In this document: in pieces, positions 1 through 10,699 of the stretch
How positions within the stretch are numbered: the stretch's first letter is position 1
Layout of the letters: each line of letters opens with the position of its first letter
Assembly (NCBI GenBank): GCA_025999775.1
Contig: BNXT01000027.1
Span: 1-10,699 of the forward strand
Direction: 5' to 3'
Source of the DNA: Bacteroidia bacterium
GTDB taxonomy: Bacteria; Bacteroidota; Bacteroidia; Bacteroidales; P3
Length of the DNA: 10,699 bases
The notes under the pieces: generated by a model
Database searches by the model: none
What the model was told of the DNA's origin: nothing
The model's input: only the letters and a program-made list of their open reading frames with translations
Program-made: the position numbers and the translations under genes

Positions 1-3000
1 ACGATACAGTTGGTGAGTGCGGGCGAAGAATTATTGTTATACATCCCGCCGCCGTTGGCGCTTGAGCTGTTTCCACTGATGGTTACATTGGTCAGTGCGG
101 GCGAGGTGGAATTCCTGTTATACATCCCGCCGCCGTCGGCGCCTGCGTTGTTTCCACTGATGGTAACGTTAGTGAGAGCGGGCGAGGATCCCCTGTTATA
201 CATCCCGCCGCCGTTGGCGCTTGAGCTGTTTCCACTGATGGTTACATTGGTCAGTGCGGGCGAGGTGGAATTCCTGTTATACATCCCGCCGCCGTCGGCG
301 CCTGCGTTGTTTCCACTGATGGTAACGTTAGTGAGAGCGGGCGAGGATCCCCTGTTAAACATCCCGCCGCCGTCGGCGCTTGAGCTGTTTCCACTGATGG
401 TTACATTGGTCAGTGCGGGCGATAAATTGGCGTTAAACATCCCGCCGCCGAATTCTGCGCTGTTTCCGCTGATGGTAACATTGCTGAGTGCGGGCGAGGA
501 ATTCTCGTTATACATCCCGCCGCCGTTGTTTTGGTAAAGAGTTTGCCAGTTTATGGTAATAGCATCGCCGCCGTCGGCATAGCCGCCGGTGATGGTGAAG
601 CCGTCAAGCAAGGCGTTGCTTACTGCGTCTGCGGAAATCACTACGTGGTAAGCGTTATCGCCTTTGTTGATGGTGAGGTCGCCTGCTATGTCATCGCCGC
701 CAAGGTCGCCGGAGAGCACGGTAAGGTTTGACAAGGGGTTTAAACCCCTTGCTTCAATCGTGCTTTCGATGCCCTCAAAGCCGCCGTAAATTTTCACATC
801 GTTTACCAGCACAAAGGCTTTGTCGCGGTTGGTGGCGGGGGCGCCACTACCGTCTATTGCTGCTGCCTTGTGCTGCGGGTAGTAGGTTCCTTTGGCAACC
901 CAAATATGCTTGATGGCGGTGTTGGTCTCCGCCGCAAGGAGCGGGTCGGCAAGCCCCGGATAAGCATCCGTCCACGACGAGCCGTCGCCTAAGCCGGCGC
1001 CGGTTACAGTAACATAGACAATGCCGCTGCCGTCGGGAGTTACAGGTATGGCAGTTTCATACGCTCCCATATCAATAGCGCCATTGCGGACACGCAGGTT
1101 GCCTGCCAAGTCTTTTTCGTCCACAAAGTCGGTAATGCCTCGGATAGTTTTATAAGCTACCATATCGCCTGCGTTGACGCAGGGGCTGCTCTGTAGCAGG
1201 CTGTAGTCGCCGGGAGCCACAAACTGCGGGTTGACGTCAATGTTGTTGTCGCCGTCGGTGCCGAAATTGGTCCAACCGCTGCTGCTACCTTCTACTAATG
1301 AGTACTCGTAGGTAGGGACGCTGCCGCTGCTGTTGAAAACGTTAATGCCACCACCAATTGCCGTATTTCCCCAAAGGATAGAGTTGGTGAGCGCAGGCGT
1401 GGAATTATTGTTATACATCCCGCCGCCGGTGCCGTTTGTGCTGTTTCCGCTGATGGTAACATTGGTGAGCACGGGCGCGGAAGAATTGTCGTTAAACATC
1501 CCGCCGCCGCCGGCGCTTTGTGCGCTGTTTCCGCTGATGGTAACATTAGTCAGCACGGGCGAGGAAGAATTCTCGTTAAACATCCCGCCGCCTAAGATGC
1601 TTGCGCTATTTCCGCTGATGGTAACATTAGTCAGCACGGGTGAGGAATTATCATAATTACTAATCCCGCCGCCGATTTGTGAGCTGTTTCCGCTGATGGT
1701 TACATTGGTGAGCGTGGGCGAGGAATTATCGTTAAACATCCCGCCGCCTAAGTTGCTTACGCTGTTTCCGCTGATGATAACATTGGTGAGAGCGGGCGAG
1801 GAAGCATAGTTATACATCCCGCCGCCGCTTTTTCGGTCAATATTTTTTGAGTTTACGGTAATAGAGCTGCCGCCGTCGGCATTGCCGCCGGTGATGGTGA
1901 AGCCATCGAGCAGGGCATCGCCGACATCGCCGGCGCCGATTACTACGTGGTAGGCGTTATCGCCTTTGTCGATGGTGAGGTCGCCCGGTGTGTCATCACC
2001 GGCAAGGTCGCCGCTGAGCACGGTAAGGTTTGACAAGGGGTTTAAACCCCTTGCTTCAATCGTGGTTTCGTCGCCCTCAAAGCCGCCGTAAATCTTCACA
2101 TCGTTTACCAGCACAAAGGCTTTGTCGCGGTCGGTGGTGGGGGCGCCACTACCGTCTGTTACTGCTGCCTTGTGCTGTGGGTAGTAGGTTCCTTTGGCTA
2201 CCCAAATCTGCTTGATGTCGGTGTAGATCTCCGAAGCAAGGAGCGGGTCGGCAAGCCCCGGGTAAGCATGCTCCCAGGACGAGCCGGTAGAGTCGCCGGC
2301 GCCGGTTACGGTAACATAGACTATGCCGCTGCCGTTGGGCACGGGCAAAGCGGTTTCATAAGCTCCCATGTCAATAGTATCATTGCTGATGCGCGGGTTG
2401 CCGGCAAGGTCGGTGGACGTACTATTGGCAGCGCTATTTCCTTTATTGATAGCAGGGCTGTTGAGTTTCAGGCGATAGTCGCCGTCGGTGGTGGGTGCGC
2501 TGGTTGCCGGTTCGGGCGCCACAAACTTCGGGTTGTTGGCAAGGTCAGCGCCGTTCAGATTGCCTGTTCCCGACAGAGTTAGACCCCCTACTACGGAGTA
2601 GTTGTAGGTAGGGGTGCTGCTGAAGTCGTTGAAAACATTATTATCGACGCTTGCCGTATTTCCCCAAACGATACAGTTGGTGAGCATGGGCAAGGAGGAA
2701 TTCCCGTTATACATCCCGCCGCCGTCGCCTGCGATATTTCCGCTGATGGTAACATTAGTCAGCACGGGCGAGGAGGTCAGTGCGGGCGAGTAGGAAGACC
2801 AGTTATACATCCCGCCGCCTTCGGCGCCGGCGCTGTTTCCGCTGATGGTAACATTGGTGAGAGCGGGCGATGCCCCCATGTTATACATCCCGCCGCCTTC
2901 GACGTCGGCGCTGTTTCCGCTGATGGTAACATTGGTGAGCGTGGACGAGGAATTAAACATGTTAGTCATCCCGCCGCCGGTGGCTGCGCTGTTTCCGCTG

Positions 3001-6000
3001 ATGGTAACATTGGTGAGCGCGGGCGAGGAATTCCAGTTAAGCATCCCGCCGCCCGTGTATCGAGTCGTTGTTTGTGAGTTTATGGTAATAGCAGCAGAGC
3101 CGCCGCCGATGGTGGAGAAGCCGCCGGTGATGGTGAAGCCGTCAAGCAAGGCGTCGCCGACATCGCCGGCGCCGATTACCACGTGGTAGGCGTCGACGTT
3201 GGTAAACGTGTTGCTGCTGTCAAGGTCGCCGCTGAGGATGGTTACATTCGCAGGGTTAGTCAAATCGCGGTCGTCAATCGTGGCTTCGTCGCCCTCAAAG
3301 CCGCCGTAAATCTTCACATCCTTTGCCAGTACAAAGGCTTTGTCGCGGTTGGTAGTAGGATTGCTCCAATCGTCTGTTGCTGCTACCTTGTGCTGCGGGT
3401 AGTAGGTTCCTTTGGCTACCCAAATCTGCTTGATGTCGGTGTAGCTCTCCGAAGCAAGTAGCGGGTCGGCAAGCCCCGGGTAAGCATGCTCCCATGACGA
3501 GCCGGTAGAGTCGCCGGCGCCGGTTACGGTAACATAGACTATGCCGCTGCCGTCGGGTATAGGCAAGGCAGTTTCATAAGCTCCCATGTCAATAGTATCA
3601 TTGCTGATGCGCGGGTTGCCGGCAAGGTCGGTGGACGTACTATTGGCAGCGCTATTTCCTTTATTGATAGCAGGGCTGTTGAGTTTCAGGCGGTAGTCGC
3701 CGGTGGGGGTGGGTATCCAGCCGCCCAGTGTAGGGTTAATCCAATTGACAAACTTCGGGTCGCTGTCAATGTTGTCGCTGCCGTCGGCGCCAAAATCGCT
3801 CCAACCGCCGCCGCTGCCTTCTACCAATGAGTGGGCGTAGGTGGGGGTACTGGCGTCGTTGTAAACGTTATCACCGCTACCTGTTGCCGTATTTCCCCAA
3901 ACGATACAGTTAGTAAGCATGGGCAAGGAATCAAAGTTAAACATCCCGCCGCCGTCCCCGCCTGTGCTGTTTCCGCTGATGGTAACATTGGTGAGCACGG
4001 GCGAGGAATTAAAGTTACCCATCCCGCCGCCGTCCCCGTATGCGCTGTTTCCGCTGATGGTAACATTGGTGAGCACGGGCGAGGAATTAAGGTTACCCAT
4101 CCCGCCGCCGCCTTCCCCGCCTGCGCTGTTTCCGCTGATGGTAACGTTGGTGAGCCTGGGCGAGGAATTATAGTTATTTATCCCGCCGCTGGAGAAGAAT
4201 GCGCTGTTTCCGCTGATGGTTACATTGGTGAGCTTGGGCGAGGAACCCTCCTCGTTAGTCATCCCGCCGCCGATGTCTTGATAAATCATTTCTGTGTTTA
4301 CGGTAATAAAACCGCTGCCGTAGGCATAGCCGCCGGTGATGGTGAAGCCGTCAAGCAAGGCGTCGCCGACATCGCCGGCGCCGATTACCACGTGGTAGGC
4401 GTTATTAGTTTTGTTGATGGTGAGGTCGCCTGCGATGTCATTGCTGTCAAGGTCGCCGCTGAGCACGGTAAGGTTTGACAAGGGGTTTAAACCCCTTGCT
4501 TCAATCGTGGCTTCGTCGCCCTCAAAGCCGCCGTAAATCTTCACATCGTTTACCAGTACAAAGGCTTTGTCGCGGTCGATAGTACCGTCGCCGGCTATGT
4601 GCTGTGGGTAGTAGGTTCCTTTGGCAACCCAAATTTCATGGATGTCGGTGTAGATCTCCGAAGCAAGGAGCGGGTCGGCAAGCCCCGGGTAAGCATGCTC
4701 CCAGGACGAGCCGGTAGAGTCGCCGGCGCCGGTTACGGTAACATAGACTATGCCGCTGCCGTCGGGTATAGGCAAGGCAGTTTCATAAGCTCCCATGTCA
4801 ATAGTATCATTGCTGATGCGCGGGTTGCCGGCAAGGTCGGTGGACGTACTATTGGCAGCGCTATTTCCTTTATTGATAGCAGGGCTGTTGAGTTTCAGGC
4901 GGTAGTCGCCGGTGGGGGTGGGTATCCAGCCGCCCAGTGTAGGGTTAATCCAATTGACAAACTTCGGGTCGCTGTCAATGTTGTCGCTGCCGTCGGCGCC
5001 AAAATCGCTCCAACCGCCGCCGCTGCCTTCTACCAATGAGTGGGCGTAGGTGGGGGTACTGGCGTCGTTGTAAACGTTATCACCGCTACCTGTTGCCGTA
5101 TTTCCCCAAACGATAGAGTTGGTGAGCGTGGGCGAAGAGCTCCTATCGTTAATCATCCCGCCGCCGTAGGCGCTTGCGCTGTTTCCGCTGATGGTAACGT
5201 TAGTGAGAACTGGCGAGGCTCCCCTGGTAAACATCCCGCCGCCGTTGGTGCCTGCGCTGTTTCCGCTGATGGTAACGTTAGTGAGAACTGGCGAGGAAAA
5301 CCTGTTATACATCCCGCCGCCGTCGTTGTATGAGCTGTTTCCGCTGATGATAACATTGGTCAGTGCGGGCGAGGAATTGGCGTTATGCATCCCGCCGCCG
5401 CCGTCTGCGCTGTTTCCGCTGATGGTAACATTGGTGAGCGCGGGCGAGGAATTCTCGTTATGCATCCCGCCGCCGCCGTATCGAACAATCATTTGTGAGT
5501 TTACAGTAATATTGTCGCTGCCGTCGGCAAAGCCGCCGGTGATGGTGAAGCCATCAAGCAAGGCGTTGCCGACTGCGCCGGCGCCGATTACTACGTGGTA
5601 GGCGTTATCGCCTTTGTCGATGGTGAGGTCGCCCGGTGTGTCATCACCGCCAAGGTCGCCGCTGAGCACGGTAAGGTTTGACAAGGGGTTTAAACCCCTT
5701 GCTTCAATCGTGGTTTCGTCGCCCTTAAAGCCGCCGTAAATCTCTACATCGGGTACCAGTACAAAGGCTTTGTCGCGGTTGGTGGTGGGGGCGCCAACAT
5801 CGTCTGTTGCTGCTGCCTTGTGCTGCGGGTAGTAGGTTCCTGCGGCAACCCAAATCTGCTTGATGGCGGAGTTAGTTTTAGCAATAAATAGCGGGTTGGC
5901 AAGCCCCGGGTAAGCATGCTCCCAGGACGAGCCGTCGCCTAAGCCATTTCCGGTTACGGTAACATAGACAATGCCGCCGGCGCCCGGCGTTGGTGGGTAT

Positions 6001-9000
6001 CCTGCTTCATACGCGCCCATATCAATGTTGCTGCCGTATATGCGCGGGTTGCCGGCAAGGTCGGTGGACGTGCTATTGACGGTATTGTCGCCAACGTTGA
6101 TGCAGGGGCTGCTCTGTAGCAGGCGGTAGTCGCCAGCGGTGGTGGGCGCACTTTCCGATGCGGGAGCCACAAACTTCGGGTCGTCGTCAATGTTGTTGCT
6201 GCCGTTGGCGCCAAAACTGTTTTGCCAAATGCCGCCACTGTAGCTGCCTTGTACCAATGAGTAGGCGTAGGTGGGGGTACTGGCGTCGTTGTAAACGTTA
6301 TCATCGCTGCCTGCCGTATTTCCCCAAAGGATAGAGTTGGTGAGCGTGGGCGAGGAATTATTGTTATACATCCCGCCGCCGTCGGCGCTTGCTCTGTTTC
6401 CGCTGATGGTAACATTGGTTAGCACGGGCGAGGAATTATTGTTATACATCCCGCCGCCGCCGTTTGTGCTGTTTCCGCTGATGGTAACATTGGTTAGCGT
6501 GGGCGAGGAATTATTGTTAACCATCCCGCCACCGACGGCGTTTGCGCTGTTTCCGCTGATGGTAACATTGGTTAGCACGGGCGAGGAATTATTGTTATAC
6601 ATCCCGCCACCGTCGGAGTCTGTGTTGTTTCCGTTGATGGTAACATTGGTGAGCGTGGGCGAGGAAGCACTGGTGTTAGACATCCCGCCGCCGCCTACGT
6701 CTGCGTAGTTTCCGTTGATGGTAAGGTTAGTGAGCGTGGGCGAGGAATTATCGTTAAACATCCCGCCGCCGAAGCATCGGGTAATATTTCGTAAGTTTAC
6801 ACTAATAGCGCTGCTGCCGCCGTCGGCATTGCCACCGGTGATGGTGAAGCCGTCGAGCAAAGCGTCGCCGACTGCGCCTGCGGAAATTACTACGTGGTAG
6901 GCGTTATCAGTATTGACGCCTATTGTGCCAAGGTCGCCGGAGAGCACGGTAAGGTTTGACAAGGGGTTTAAACCCCTTGCTTCAATCGAGGCTTCGCCGC
7001 CTGCAAAGCCGCCGTAAATCTTCACGTCGTTTACCAATACAAAGGCTTTGTCGCGGTCGGTAGTACCGTCACCGGCTATGTGCTGCGGGTAGTAGGTTCC
7101 TTTGGCAACCCAAATCTGCGTGATGGCGGGGTTGGTCTTCGCCTCAAGGAGCGGGTTGGCAAGACCCGAGTAAGCATCCTTCCATGAAGAGCCGTCCTTG
7201 TTGCCATCGCCGGTTATGGTAACATAGACAATGCCGTTGCCGTCGGGTATGGTGGGGGCAATAATCTGCAACGTGCCGGCAACGTAGGTAAAGACGTAGT
7301 TTTTGGCTTCGCCACCTGTTGCCGTGATGGGGTACGTGCCTGCCGCGCTGCCTATTGTTGCCGTAGTGTTTGCCGTGGGTGCAGTGGTCAAAACGCCTAC
7401 TCCGTCGCTATATTTCCAACCGCTGTAGGTGATTCTGAACGCGGGGTTCGCATTGCCGTATAGTCGGGTGGTATCCTCGGCGGTAACGGTTAGCGTGGCG
7501 GGTGTGATTTTGAAGCTCACTGCTACCGTAGTATCGGCATAGTAGGCAGGCGTTTCCGCTATCACGCCCTTGATCCAATACGTGCCGGTGTCCACCGGTA
7601 CAGGGGTTTCAGCATACGTGCCGTATTGCGAAGCGGCGTATATATAAGTTGTATCGCCATAGCCGGGGTTAGTACCGTCGGTGAGAGAGGGCGCCAACGC
7701 CGTGCCGTACGTTGTTGTGGAGGCAATGACTGCCGTTGCGCGGCGTACGCTGGCTTTGTAGGGCGATTCATACGCGCCCATGTCAATGAGGGTTAGCTGT
7801 AGCCTGTCATCGCCTGCCACATCTTTTTCATTCGTAAAATTAGCAATGCCGCGGGCAGTTTTATAGGCTACCGTGTCGCCGTAGCCGATGCAGAAGCTGC
7901 CTTTTTGCAGGCGGTAGTCGCCGTCGGGGGTGGGTGCGCTGGTTGCCAGTTCGGGATCCACAAAGAGCGGGTCGTCGTCAATGTTGTTGCCGCCGTCGGC
8001 GCCAAAATCGTATGAGTTCCAAATGCCGATACCGCTGCCGCCGCTGCCTTGTACCAATGAGTAGGCGTAGGTGGTGGTGGAGCTGCTGTTGCAAATGTTA
8101 ATATAACTACTTGCCGTATTTCCCCAAACGATACAGTTGGCAAGTGCGGGCAAGGAATTATAGTTATATATCCCGCCGCCGACAGCTGTTGCGCTGTTTC
8201 CGCTGATGGTAACGTTGGTGAGCGTGGGCGAGGAATTATTGTTACGCATCCCGCCACCGACACCTGTTGCGCTGTTTCCGCTGATGATTACGTTGGTCAG
8301 CACGGACAAGGAATTATAGTTACATATCCCGCCGCCGGCAGATGTTGCGCTGTTTCCGCTGATGGTAACGTTGGTGAGCGCAAGCGAGGAAGTATCGTTA
8401 AACATCCCGCCGCCTTCGTAGTTTGCGCTGTTTCCGCTGATGGTTACATTGCTGAGCGCAGGCGATGAACTCCTGTTATACATCCCGCCGCCGTTGTTTC
8501 GGGAACTATTTTTTGAGTTTACGTTAATAGTGCCGCTGCCGTTGGCATTGCCGCCGGTGATGGTGAAGCCGTCAAGCAGGGCGTCGCCTACGGTGTCTGC
8601 GGAAATTACTACGTGGTAGGTGTTATCAGCATCGCTGCCTATTGTGCCAATGTCGCCGCTGAGGGTGGTAACGTTGGTTACCCAATCGCGGTCGGCAATT
8701 GACGTGTCCGTGGTGATGCCCTCAAAGCCGCCGTAAATCTTTACATCGGTTACCAGCACAAAGGCTTTGTCGCGGGGGTTGGCTGTGGGAACGTCGGCGG
8801 CATTGTGCTGCGGCTGGTAGGTACCTGCGGCAACCCAAATCTGCTGAATGGCGGGGTTGGTCTTCGCCGCAAGGAGCGGGTCGGCAAGCCCTTCGTAAGC
8901 GTTTGCCCACGAAGAGCCGTCGCCTGTGCCATTGCCGGTTACGGTAACATAGATTATGCCGCCGGCGCCGGGCGTTGGAGCGGCTTCGTACGCACCCATA

Positions 9001-10022
9001 TCTATAGTGCTGAGGAGTATGCGCGAGTTGCCGGCAAGGTCGGTGGACGTGCTATTGACGGTATTGTCGCCCGCGTTGATGCAGGGGCTGCTCATTTGCA
9101 GGCGGTAGTCGCCGGCGGGGGTGGGTGCGCTGGTTGCCAGTTCGGGCGCCACAAACTTCGGGTTGTCGTCAATGTTGTTGTTGCCGTTGACGCCAAAATC
9201 GATTGTGTTCCAAGTGCTGCCGCTGTAGCTGCCTTGTACCAATGAGTAGGCGTAGGTGGGGGTACTGCCGTCGTTGTAAACGTTAACGCCGCTTGTTGCC
9301 GTATTTCCCCAAAGGATAGAGTTGGTGATCGTGGGCGAGGAATTATCGTTATACATCCCGCCGCCGCTGGTGTTTGCGCTGTTTCCGCTGATGGTTACAT
9401 TGATGAGCAGGAGCGAGCTAGAACAACCGGTGTTATACATCCCGCCGCCGGTGGCGTTTGCGCTGTTTCCGCTGATGGTAACATTGGTCAGCACGGGCAA
9501 GGAATTATAGTTAAACATTCCGCCTCCGCTGGAGGCGTTTGCGCTGTTTCCGCTGATGGTAACATTGGTCAGCACGGGCGAGGAATTATAGTTATACATC
9601 CCGCCGCCGGAGTTTGCGCTGTTTCTGCTGATGGTAAGGTTGGTCAGTGTAGGCGTGGAATTATAGTTATACATCCCGCCGCCGCTACTTTGAGCAATCT
9701 CTATTGAGTTTACGGTAATAAGGGTGCTGCCGTCGGCATTGCCGCCGGTGATGGTGAAGCCATCGAGCAGGGCATCGCCTACTGTGCCTGCACCGATTAC
9801 TACGTGGTAGGTGTTATCAGTACTATCGCCTATTACGCCAAGGTCGCCGCTGAGGATGGTTACATTCGCAGGGTTCGTCAAATCGCGGTCGGCAATTGAT
9901 GTGTCCGTGGCGATGCCCACAAAGCCGCCGTAAATCTTTACATCGTTTGCCAGCACAAAGGCTTTGTCGCGGTCGATGGTGGGGGCGCCACTACCGTCTG
10001 TTACTGCTGCCTTGTGCTGCGG
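1..10022 (-). CDS. Giant modular right-handed beta-helix repeat surface/secreted protein, partial at both ends
   Basis: One minus-strand frame is open for 3340 codons with no stop. I checked frame continuity at the Met/Ile codon of nearly every coil, and all fall in the same phase. It encodes eight tandem modules, each with a beta-helix cap, five to seven coils of about 26 residues (GGGMYN..SSP.LTNVTISGNSA) and a tail with SPAINKGD, DLAGNPRI and IDMGAYE. The coils resemble right-handed parallel beta-helix proteins and, more loosely, the chlamydial Pmp repeat. The tail resembles choice-of-anchor Q domains. From these families I infer an exported, extracellular or outer-surface adhesin-like or carbohydrate-binding protein. 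No catalytic residues are recognisable. Signal peptide, start codon and sorting domain lie outside the window, so the secretion route is unknown. The frame stays open beyond the strand switch up to a stop at 10284-10286, with an ATG at 10266-10268, but that extension is antisense to the plus-strand copy and is not a credible N-terminus. Confidence 0.9.
35..357 (-). repeat. 159-bp tandem duplication (two coils duplicated)
   Basis: Bases 35-198 are identical to 194-357: 164 bp of exact identity at an offset of 159. The unit encodes exactly two coils (53 residues), so the frame is kept. A third, partial and slightly diverged copy follows at about 360-421. The coils in this unit have SGNSSSAN and SGNNAGAD in their turns. 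Lack of mismatches indicates a very recent event. Confidence 0.95.
732..751. repeat. 20-bp perfect palindrome, copy in M8
   Basis: The sequence caaggggttt is followed directly by its reverse complement, with TTTAAA at the centre. It lies in frame and encodes part of ARGLNPLS in the beta-helix cap. Flanks gtaaggtttga and cttcaatcg are shared with the other copies. No T-run follows on either side, so it is not a typical terminator. Confidence 0.95.
1020..2321 (-). repeat. Beta-helix module M7
   Basis: Residues 2568-3001 (434 residues). The lead-in is EHAYPGLADPLLASEIYTDIKQIWVAKGTYYPQHK, and the cap is of the palindrome type. Six coils lie at 1359-1826, one beginning GGGISNYDNSSP. Several contain one extra residue in the SSP turn (NSSSP, NSSAP), which lengthens the coil. 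The tail is the alternative form CVNAGDMVAYKTIRGITDF, EKDLAGNLRV, IDMGAYE, close to that of M2. Confidence 0.87.
2034..2053. repeat. 20-bp perfect palindrome, copy in M7
   Basis: Identical to the copy at 732-751 and in the same codon phase. The downstream flank reads cttcaatcgtggtttcg, one of two subtypes. Confidence 0.95.
2322..3539 (-). repeat. Beta-helix module M6
   Basis: Residues 2162-2567 (406 residues). The cap reads DEATIDDRDLTNPANVTILSGDLD, without the palindrome, although its lead-in matches the palindrome-bearing modules closely. Five coils lie at 2652-3053. The fourth contains an in-frame expansion, SPALTSSPVLTN, and the second carries TNMFNSSSTLTN. The inter-domain stretch is the GGLTLSGTGNLNGADLANNP variant, related to the plus-strand fragment. 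The tail shares a 122-bp exact segment with M4 and M5. Confidence 0.87.
2353..2474 (-). repeat. 122-bp segment exactly shared by three module tails
   Basis: Identical to 3571-3692 and 4780-4901. It encodes the tail stretch from RLKLNSPAINKGNSAANSTS through DLAGNPRISNDTIDMGAYET. The sequence next to it (DLANNPKFVAPEPA) is unlike the WINPTLGGW of the other two, so homogenisation covers only part of the tail. Confidence 0.93.
3496..3906 (-). repeat. 411-bp exact duplicate, copy in the M5 tail and start of M6
   Basis: Identical base for base to 4705-5115 (offset 1209, the module length). It covers the end of the last coil, the whole tail and the VYVTVTGAGDSTGSSW start of the following module. 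Identity continues beyond a single mismatch at 3495, while the coils on the other side are clearly diverged. Confidence 0.93.
3540..4748 (-). repeat. Beta-helix module M5
   Basis: Residues 1759-2161 (403 residues, the shortest complete module). The lead-in has a shortened TYYPQHIAGDGTIDRDKAF like that of M3, lacking the KAAVTDGSGAP spacer of other modules. The palindrome is present. Five coils lie at 3885-4271, including a degenerate one (SGGINNYNSSPRLTN) and two GGGMGN coils. The last coil ends LPMLTNCIVWGNTA. From the coil end onward the DNA matches M4 exactly. Confidence 0.87.
4479..4498. repeat. 20-bp perfect palindrome, copy in M5
   Basis: Identical palindrome in the same position of the cap. 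The downstream flank is cttcaatcgtggcttcg, the subtype also resembling the palindrome-less M6 (tcaatcgtggcttcg). Confidence 0.95.
4705..5115 (-). repeat. 411-bp exact duplicate, copy in the M4 tail and start of M5
   Basis: Partner of 3496-3906. Identity ends at 5115/3906, where the plus strand reads gagttggtgag here and cagttagtaag in the partner. A 122-bp core (4780-4901) is also exactly shared with M6 at 2353-2474. Confidence 0.93.
4749..5969 (-). repeat. Beta-helix module M4
   Basis: Residues 1352-1758 (407 residues). The cap contains VPDVEIYGGFKGDETTIEARGLNPLS, palindrome version. Five coils lie at 5094-5477. The first two are GGGGMHN, and the fourth is GGGMFT with Thr replacing the otherwise near-invariant Asn. 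The tail (HSLVEGSGGGWSDFGADG, WINPTLGGWIPTPTGDYRL, SPAINKGNSAANSTS, IDMGAYETALPIPDGSG) is identical at the DNA level to that of M5. Confidence 0.87.
5692..5711. repeat. 20-bp perfect palindrome, copy in M4
   Basis: Identical palindrome. The flanks match the M7 copy (cttcaatcgtggtttcg), and so does the upstream stretch encoding DDTPGDLTIDKGDNAYHVV. Confidence 0.95.
5970..7229 (-). repeat. Beta-helix module M3
   Basis: Residues 932-1351 (420 residues). It opens with VYVTITGDGNKDGSSWKDAY, and its cap carries the palindrome-encoded ARGLNPLSNLTVLSGDLG. Six coils lie at 6312-6770. Two use TINGN rather than TISGN (plus-strand tttccgttgatgg), and two begin with an extra Gly (GGGGM). The coils at 6360-6600 repeat the block NNNSSP with few changes, pointing to local duplication. 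The tail has WQNSFGANGSNNIDDDPKFV, SSPCINVGDN, DLAGNPRI and IDMGAYE. Confidence 0.87.
6960..6979. repeat. 20-bp perfect palindrome, copy in M3
   Basis: Identical palindrome. The flank downstream is slightly different (cttcaatcgaggcttcgc), while the palindrome itself has no change, so the inverted symmetry is conserved better than its surroundings. Confidence 0.95.
7266..7508 (-). other. MBG domain within the giant protein
   Basis: About residues 839-919 of the visible frame. The segment ITPATLTVTAEDTTRLYGNA, then FRITYSGW, APTANTTATIGSAAGTYPIT, NYVFTYVAGTLQI follows the standard order of the MBG family (TLTVTA, YG, YSG, A.....S.AGTYPIT, NY....GTL.I). MBG domains are extracellular beta-sandwich repeats common in large Bacteroidota surface proteins, often in multiple copies. 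Only one is seen here. It probably acts as a spacer or binding unit between two beta-helix modules. Confidence rests on motif recognition by eye. Confidence 0.8.
7509..7763 (-). other. Ig-like domain preceding the MBG domain
   Basis: About residues 754-838. The stretch runs from ATAVIASTTTYGTALAPSLT through GYGDTTYIYAAS, YGTYAETPVPVDTGTYWIKG to AETPAYYADTTVAVSFKI. The pattern YGT.L.P, then Y.Y..S..GTY....P.D.GTYW.K, then Y.....V.F.I matches the bacterial Ig-like repeats that commonly precede MBG/YDG domains in Bacteroidota adhesins. It directly follows the IDMGAYES end of the M2 tail. I cannot assign an exact family by eye. Confidence 0.6.
8955..10022 (-). repeat. Beta-helix module M1 (N-terminally truncated)
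   Basis: Residues 1-356 of the visible frame. The lead-in is cut off within TYYPQHKAA at the strand switch, so the first residues seen are QHKAAVTDGSGAP. The cap reads DRDKAFVLANDVKIYGGF and then IADRDLTNPANVTILSGDLG, the version without the palindrome. Five coils occupy 9297-9683. The fourth coil is irregular, with GCSSSLLLINV in place of the usual SSP.LTNV. The tail has WNTIDFGVNGNNNIDDNPKFV, SSPCINAGDN, DLAGNSRI and IDMGAYE. Confidence 0.85.
10019..10022. other. Strand-switch junction (inversion breakpoint or chimera)
   Basis: To the left, minus-strand coding of M1 is intact up to the CAG of TYYPQH. To the right, plus-strand coding begins within the opening glycines of a coil. The four bases gcgg fit both parents: ctgcgggtag in other lead-ins and ggcggtatg in coils. 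The join therefore looks like a 4-base microhomology join between non-equivalent positions of the module, not a crossover at homologous positions. No inverted repeat of the kind used by site-specific invertases is evident at the join. Confidence 0.85.
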
Positions 10023-10699
10023 TATGTTTAACAGTGGTTCCTCGCCCGTGCTGACCAATGTTACCATCAGCGGAAACAGCGCAGTCTACGACGGCGGCGG
10101 GATATATAACACTAGTTCCTCGCTCGTGCTGACCAATGTTACCATCAGCGGAAACAGCGCAAACGCCACCGGCGGCGGTATGTTTAACAGTAGTTCCTCG
10201 CCCGTGATCACCAACTCTATCCTTTGGGGAAATACGGCAACAAGCGGCGATAATAACGTTTACAACATCGGCAGCGCCCCCACCTACGACTACTCATTAG
10301 TAGGAGGTATAGACCTATCGAGCACAAGTATGGGCAATCTGAACGGCGCTGACCCTACCAACGACCCGAAGTTTGTCAATTGGATTAACCCTACACTGGG
10401 CGGCTGGACAGCCACCCCCGACGGCGACTACCGCCTGAAACTTAACAGCCCTGCTATCAATAAAGGAGATAACGCTGCCATTACTACGTCCATCGACACC
10501 GACCTTGCCGGCAAACCGCGCATCAGCAATGGCGCTATTGATATGGGAGCTTATGAAACTATCCTGCCAACGCCCGATATCAACAACATAGTCTATGTTA
10601 CCGTAACCGGCGCCGGCGACTCTACCGGCTCGTCATGGACGAATGCTTATCCCGGGCTTGCCGACCCGCTCCTTGCTTCGGAGATCTACCTCCCCATCC
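10021..10699 (+). CDS. Oppositely oriented fragment of a paralogous beta-helix repeat protein, partial at both ends
   Basis: The plus frame starting at GGT 10021 encodes three coils (GGMFNSGSSPVLTNVTISGN, GGGIYNTSSS and GGGMFNSSSSPVITN), ending in SILWGNTA near 10239. A complete tail follows (PTYDYSLV, GNLNGADPTNDPKFV, WINPTLGGW, GDYRLKLNSPAINKGD, DLAGKPRI, IDMGAYE). It then enters the next module's lead-in (VYVTVTGAGDSTGSSW, YPGLADPLLASEIY), which runs off the window. It is the same family as the minus-strand gene but identical to none of its modules: the middle combines the NLNGAD stretch of M6 with the WINPTLGGW stretch of M4/M5. The first coil is cut at its opening glycines, and no start or upstream cap exists. 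A gene caller would begin at ATG 9976, but the first 15 codons are antisense to M1. The final bases (EIYLPI instead of the usual EIYTDI) diverge right at the window edge. Confidence 0.88.

Follow-up and report, generated by a model that had tools for sequence, protein, structure and literature searches.

A strand flip inside a giant repeat gene of a Bacteroidales assembly probably reflects an inverted amplification chimera

The closest described counterparts of the locus reported here are the chimeras that arise when DNA is amplified by strand displacement, as in MDA. According to the accessible text of PMC1855051, the share of inverted joins among MDA chimeras exceeds 85%; displaced 3' ends re-prime on nearby strands, with complementarity of up to 21 nt and with at least 2 bp in 93.5% of the inverted joins of less than 10 kb. 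The accessible text of PMC4595205 places the peak of the overlap at 6 nt and gives distances from 0 to more than 5,000 nt, peaking at 250-300. Our locus is similar to the inverted chimeras of both accounts in its orientation, its short overlap and a jump that was presumably local (about 0.7 kb, provided that the copied unit was a neighbour). It differs from what that part of PMC4595205 describes in having an overlap of 4 nt against the peak of 6, and in that it is known from a finished assembly alone; amplification is presumed here. The affected gene has its own relatives. Features of the plus-strand fragment and of contigs C5, C15 and C1 of the same assembly resemble choice-of-anchor Q proteins (NF041518) with MBG_2 domains and a TIGR04183 type A sorting tail. 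Unlike the usual NF041518 proteins it is very long, with about 850 (C5), 3,340 (C27) and 3,140 (C1) codons if these belong to one gene, C27 and C1 overlapping. Among the matches listed for the plus fragment in genome_contigs, the best named relative is a repeat gene of Candidatus Symbiothrix dinenymphae (BBRT01000180.1, 57% amino acid identity), which, unlike C27, matches on a single strand in the piece examined.

The window, that is, the whole stretch of DNA analysed, is the entire contig C27 (10,699 nt). It comes from an assembly of 563 contigs and 2,045,119 bases with a completeness of 61.78%; the highest-numbered contig, C563, has 1001 bases, which suggests a 1-kb size cut-off. Of the 120 relatives listed for the topoisomerase on C1 (8000 candidates scored), the query's own entry aside, none exceeded 81%, and the nearest with a name were 'Bacteroidales bacterium' at 80% and 78%. 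C27 is almost wholly coding on the minus strand, for a single repeat protein; on its plus strand, from about 10019 onward, another unit of this family runs to the contig end, within an ORF (9964..10698) that is open at its end. The features needed below are the following.

3..10067, minus strand: mechanical ORF from the ORF list; by homology limits its real part runs from about 10022 down to 3.
9911..10022, minus strand: lead-in of M1, the first minus unit, truncated at 10022; 96% identity to C1:880-991.
10019..10699, plus strand: inverted fragment with three coils, a 'choice-of-anchor Q' tail and the beginning of the next lead-in.
10016..10022, no strand: junction GCTGCGG, placed by homology limits and comparison of native lead-ins and coils.
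10573..10699, plus strand: final 127 nt of the contig, matching the reverse complement of C5:1-127 without a difference, the identity ending there.
1..450, minus strand: sense end of C27, with two exact matches to the start of C1, 257 and 198 nt long, and a 159-nt tandem-repeat offset.

A sequence-only reading of this DNA had placed an abrupt change of coding strand at about 10020. The change was confirmed: minus units extend to about 10022 and the plus unit starts at about 10019. The first residues of the minus ORF (10067-10023) are an antisense reading of the inverted piece, and the remainder, which begins at about 10022 and ends at 3, probably represents the central part of a giant repeat gene. 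The likeness of the plus fragment to the repeat family is not a matter of chance, since its alignment with C5 spans all 681 nt at 87% DNA identity; the last unit of C5 is its closest match, with 89% amino acid identity in the tail. Between the plus and minus copies of C27 we found 11 pairs of long imperfect inverted repeats (arms of 72-135 nt, 73-91% complementary), as expected.

The start of the family gene sits on C5 (MKHSLLLVCS..., 852 codons to the contig edge), with an N-terminus that, judged by eye, is signal-peptide-like. On C15 there is a paralogue that is complete (2,200 codons), has a nearly identical N-terminus and carries both MBG domains and a T9SS tail. C1 bears the end of such a gene, where MBG domains and a T9SS sorting tail also occur. 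The plus fragment reaches 41.1 bits with NF041518 against a cut-off of 25; C5 and C15 are also above that cut-off and the C1 end slice is below it (21.7 vs 25). TIGR04183 is passed on C1 (31.3 bits vs 23) and on the complete paralogue of C15 (24.5 vs 23), and Pfam Por_Secre_tail falls just under its cut-off of 27 on C1 (26.7) and C15 (21.8). MBG_2 domains were identified on C1 and C15, and a Pfam search of the plus fragment found no family. One MBG_2 also lies in the minus part of C27 (7200-10019), mid-gene between repeat units, so MBG is not confined to the gene ends.

Judging by the shared stretches listed above, the repeat gene appears to continue from C27 into C1, where C1:1-89 has no match to C27 at the overlap of the two ends. 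The minus part of C27 is probably an inner piece between C5 (start) and C1 (end). We infer, the bridge from C5 to M1 being missing, that the three contigs are probably pieces of a single giant surface-protein gene. An inner position of the minus part means that no start codon is needed on either side of the flip. Start codons are indeed lacking there, as the sequence-only reading had remarked; the oddness that it saw in this does not hold, as each side has the look of an internal part of the giant gene. A head-to-head gene pair is excluded, there being no intergenic space at the join and the family gene start being on C5.

Other peculiarities of the gene were seen along the way. Positions 3496-3906 and 4705-5115 form a 411-nt exact direct repeat in neighbouring units whose tails are 100% identical in amino acids, possibly by recent duplication or assembly duplication. 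A 164-nt exact tandem copy (35-198 and 194-357, offset 159), of which C1 seemingly has one copy fewer, may reflect a repeat number that varies or was collapsed. C1:1-95 is an exact match to C1:5437-5531, and C1 matches C27 from its position 90 onward, about 6 nt being in common; a chimera in direct orientation or mixed assembly paths may be the cause. On C1 and C15 the repeat gene is directly followed by a similar gene that by eye is of outer-membrane type (C1 9429-10934, C15 6715-7548), possibly a conserved pair.

The join itself was delimited by homology. Lead-in homology reaches 10022 and coil homology starts no earlier than 10016. Among the eight native lead-ins printed, six have GTGCTGCGGG and two have GTGCTGTGGG; the listed coils, which were located by a pattern that itself demands GGCGG, mostly have GGCGGCGG followed by (G)ATG or TATG. 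The junction of the window reads GTGCTGCGGTATG. Native lead-in and native coil thus have GCGG in common as exact overlap (4 nt; 6/7 over GCTGCGG), which agrees with the 'about 4 bases' of the sequence-only reading. The two joined segments lie in inverted orientation, as in MDA-type inverted chimeras, and the complementarity falls within their range of 2-21 nt. Against a chimera, 4 nt is under the 5-8 nt that most chimeras have in the accessible text of PMC4595205.

The composition of the join bears on how it could have formed in cells or in the computer. It links a lead-in with a coil, not a coil with a coil, so recombination between inverted coils is excluded and ordinary inverted-repeat recombination was not the route. 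Bacteroidales use invertible DNA for surface antigens, and a programmed, site-specific invertible segment that switches the surface protein would be in keeping with this; we regard it as barely credible here, given that native lead-in and coil have just 4 nt exact in common at the join and that the other boundary would lie outside the window. The short overlap also speaks against a mis-join by the assembler alone, in which paired reads or path extension would have connected edges of the repeat gene the wrong way round and no chimeric molecule would have existed: graph errors at k=127 should fall in long identical stretches. Near-identical units do abound (the 411-nt repeat is one case), the gene is spread over several contigs, and the start of C1, with its switch at about position 90 to C27-like sequence, resembles mixed paths.

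The end of the contig is also informative. SPAdes usually goes up to a k-mer of 127, so C27 probably stops at a k=127 vertex of the assembly graph that it has in common with C5. Of the 74 contigs that were read, two more, C46 and C180, likewise have exactly 127 nt in common at their ends; C37 and C71 do too, within a 7-nt tandem repeat and thus less tellingly. The sequence-only reading had proposed a search for the unflipped continuation of M1. We ran it: the M1 lead-in occurs exactly nowhere else, its best match being the 96% one in C1, and the last 127 nt of the window occur exactly in C27 and C5 only, so that a native bridge from this 127-mer to M1 was not found. The native path may lie in sequence outside the contigs examined. 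The distance from a GCCGACCCGCT-type motif to the lead-in motif is 72 nt in 8 of the 10 listed units and 102 in one with an insertion, C5 being cut; the plus end of C27 retains 40 nt past its GCCGACCCGCT-type motif, and it therefore stops about 32 nt short of the next lead-in. This spacing would suit whichever unit comes next and on its own does not point to M1.

Which unit was inverted can be approached from the tails. The plus-unit tail, at 89% amino acid identity to the last unit of C5, has 54-75% to the 12 other units compared. The other high tail pairs are mostly gene neighbours (100, 79, 79 and 78%), together with two non-neighbour pairs (80 and 78%). By this comparison of sequences, a position of the plus unit after the last unit of C5 and before M1 would fit, which falls short of proof. 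The native neighbour of M1 is absent from the assembly; if the plus unit was that neighbour, comparison with C1:173-880 gives a jump of about 0.7 kb.

Strand changes of this kind were sought across the family. The plus-fragment protein was searched against 83 loci, namely 78 from genome_contigs (from the best 80 of 126), C1, C5, C15, one relative locus and C27. All 83 matched it, and C27 was the only one of these with a strand change inside the repeats; one locus (L044) has one match per strand, 7 kb apart. The lack of any flip inside the repeats in the 82 other loci argues against a real inversion in cells, in which replication would have switched template through microhomology and split or switched the gene. 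Such switching in the cell leaves an identical scar. Here the plus piece lacks a start region and is cut off by the contig end and, as seen above, a lead-in-to-coil junction is not what ordinary inverted-repeat recombination would give.

Similar joins were then found at other contig ends. We scanned for inverted copies of inner sequence (at least 93% identity, at least 40 nt) lying exactly at a contig end, in 73 other readable contigs totalling 760,243 bases (83 taken, of which 10 were all N; 7 were covered in their first 20 kb only). Three of the 73 had such tips, C80, C42 and, doubtfully, C43, whose terminal match of 50 nt is possibly a small natural repeat; an inner palindrome is present in C41. 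In C80 the tip (6580-6693) is a 114-nt exact inverted copy within 133 nt at 94.7%, its source lying 2.3 kb away; the exact stretch begins CTTAAAAAC. It is located among what look by eye like fatty-acid-type genes, outside the repeat family. In C42 the tip (1-378) is an inverted copy of 378 nt at 98.4% identity, the first 127 exact, from a source 5.2 kb away that is part of an outer-membrane-type gene (by eye). It joins a multi-copy repeat gene that is cut at the join. The overlap there is up to AAACAATT, 8 nt, but would shrink to 3 exact nt should the native sequence resemble the C156 homologue, and the 6 mismatches in 378 mean that the tip is not a plain copy. In a control of three other genomes, none of 43 readable contigs (348,217 bases; 60 taken, 17 dropped for N) had an inverted tip; 3/73 against 0/43 are counts too low to tell the genomes apart.

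With C80 and C42, the assembly contains more than one inverted join. C80 has a similar inverted layout outside the repeat family and its 214-nt tip matches C80 alone in the genome, which further weakens a mis-join as sole cause; we think that explanation unlikely. The differences in the C42 copy would also suit a natural duplication, and hence a real inversion in cells. The inverted copies of C80 and C42 nevertheless lie, as in C27, exactly at contig tips, and we hold a real inversion to be quite improbable.

We think, with a probability of roughly 0.8, that the flip is an inverted MDA-type template-switch chimera retained in the assembly and not biology. The sequence-only reading had left the choice between a rearrangement breakpoint and an artefact; the inverted orientation, the short overlap, the contig end at a shared 127-mer and the two similar tips favour the artefact, and an amplification chimera within it. 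This account takes up the flip, the overlap, the 127-mer, the unit spacing and the tips of C80 and C42 as observed. The sample DNA would have been amplified, with which the completeness of 61.78% and the 563 contigs are compatible, and M1's true neighbour would be a unit of the kind now seen inverted. We hypothesize that scarce template was amplified whole-genome by strand displacement, as in MDA, and that a growing strand copying M1 would have detached at the M1 lead-in. It could then have re-primed via GCGG (6/7 over GCTGCGG) on a displaced strand of the same gene, in a coil of a unit just upstream, from where copying would have proceeded in reverse. The assembler would have retained the chimeric molecule as the end of C27, halting at the 127-mer common to the inverted unit and the last unit of C5. 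C27 and C80 fit this mechanism. C42 fits it as well, except that a variant template would have to be assumed to account for its 6 mismatches.

Strand flips at the tips of C27, C42 and C80 should be set aside before claims are made on inversions or gene arrangement in this genome, and the gene models of C27 should not be taken as a divergent gene pair. There is a very slim chance that a microhomology-driven inversion, present in part of the population, cuts the giant T9SS surface protein between units and thereby diversifies it; the joins of C42 and C80 would then be natural too, as additional inversions of this lineage. On our preferred reading, that of an amplification chimera, C27 probably encodes part of a secreted, beta-helix-like repeat protein of T9SS type, ordinary biology broken by an artefact.
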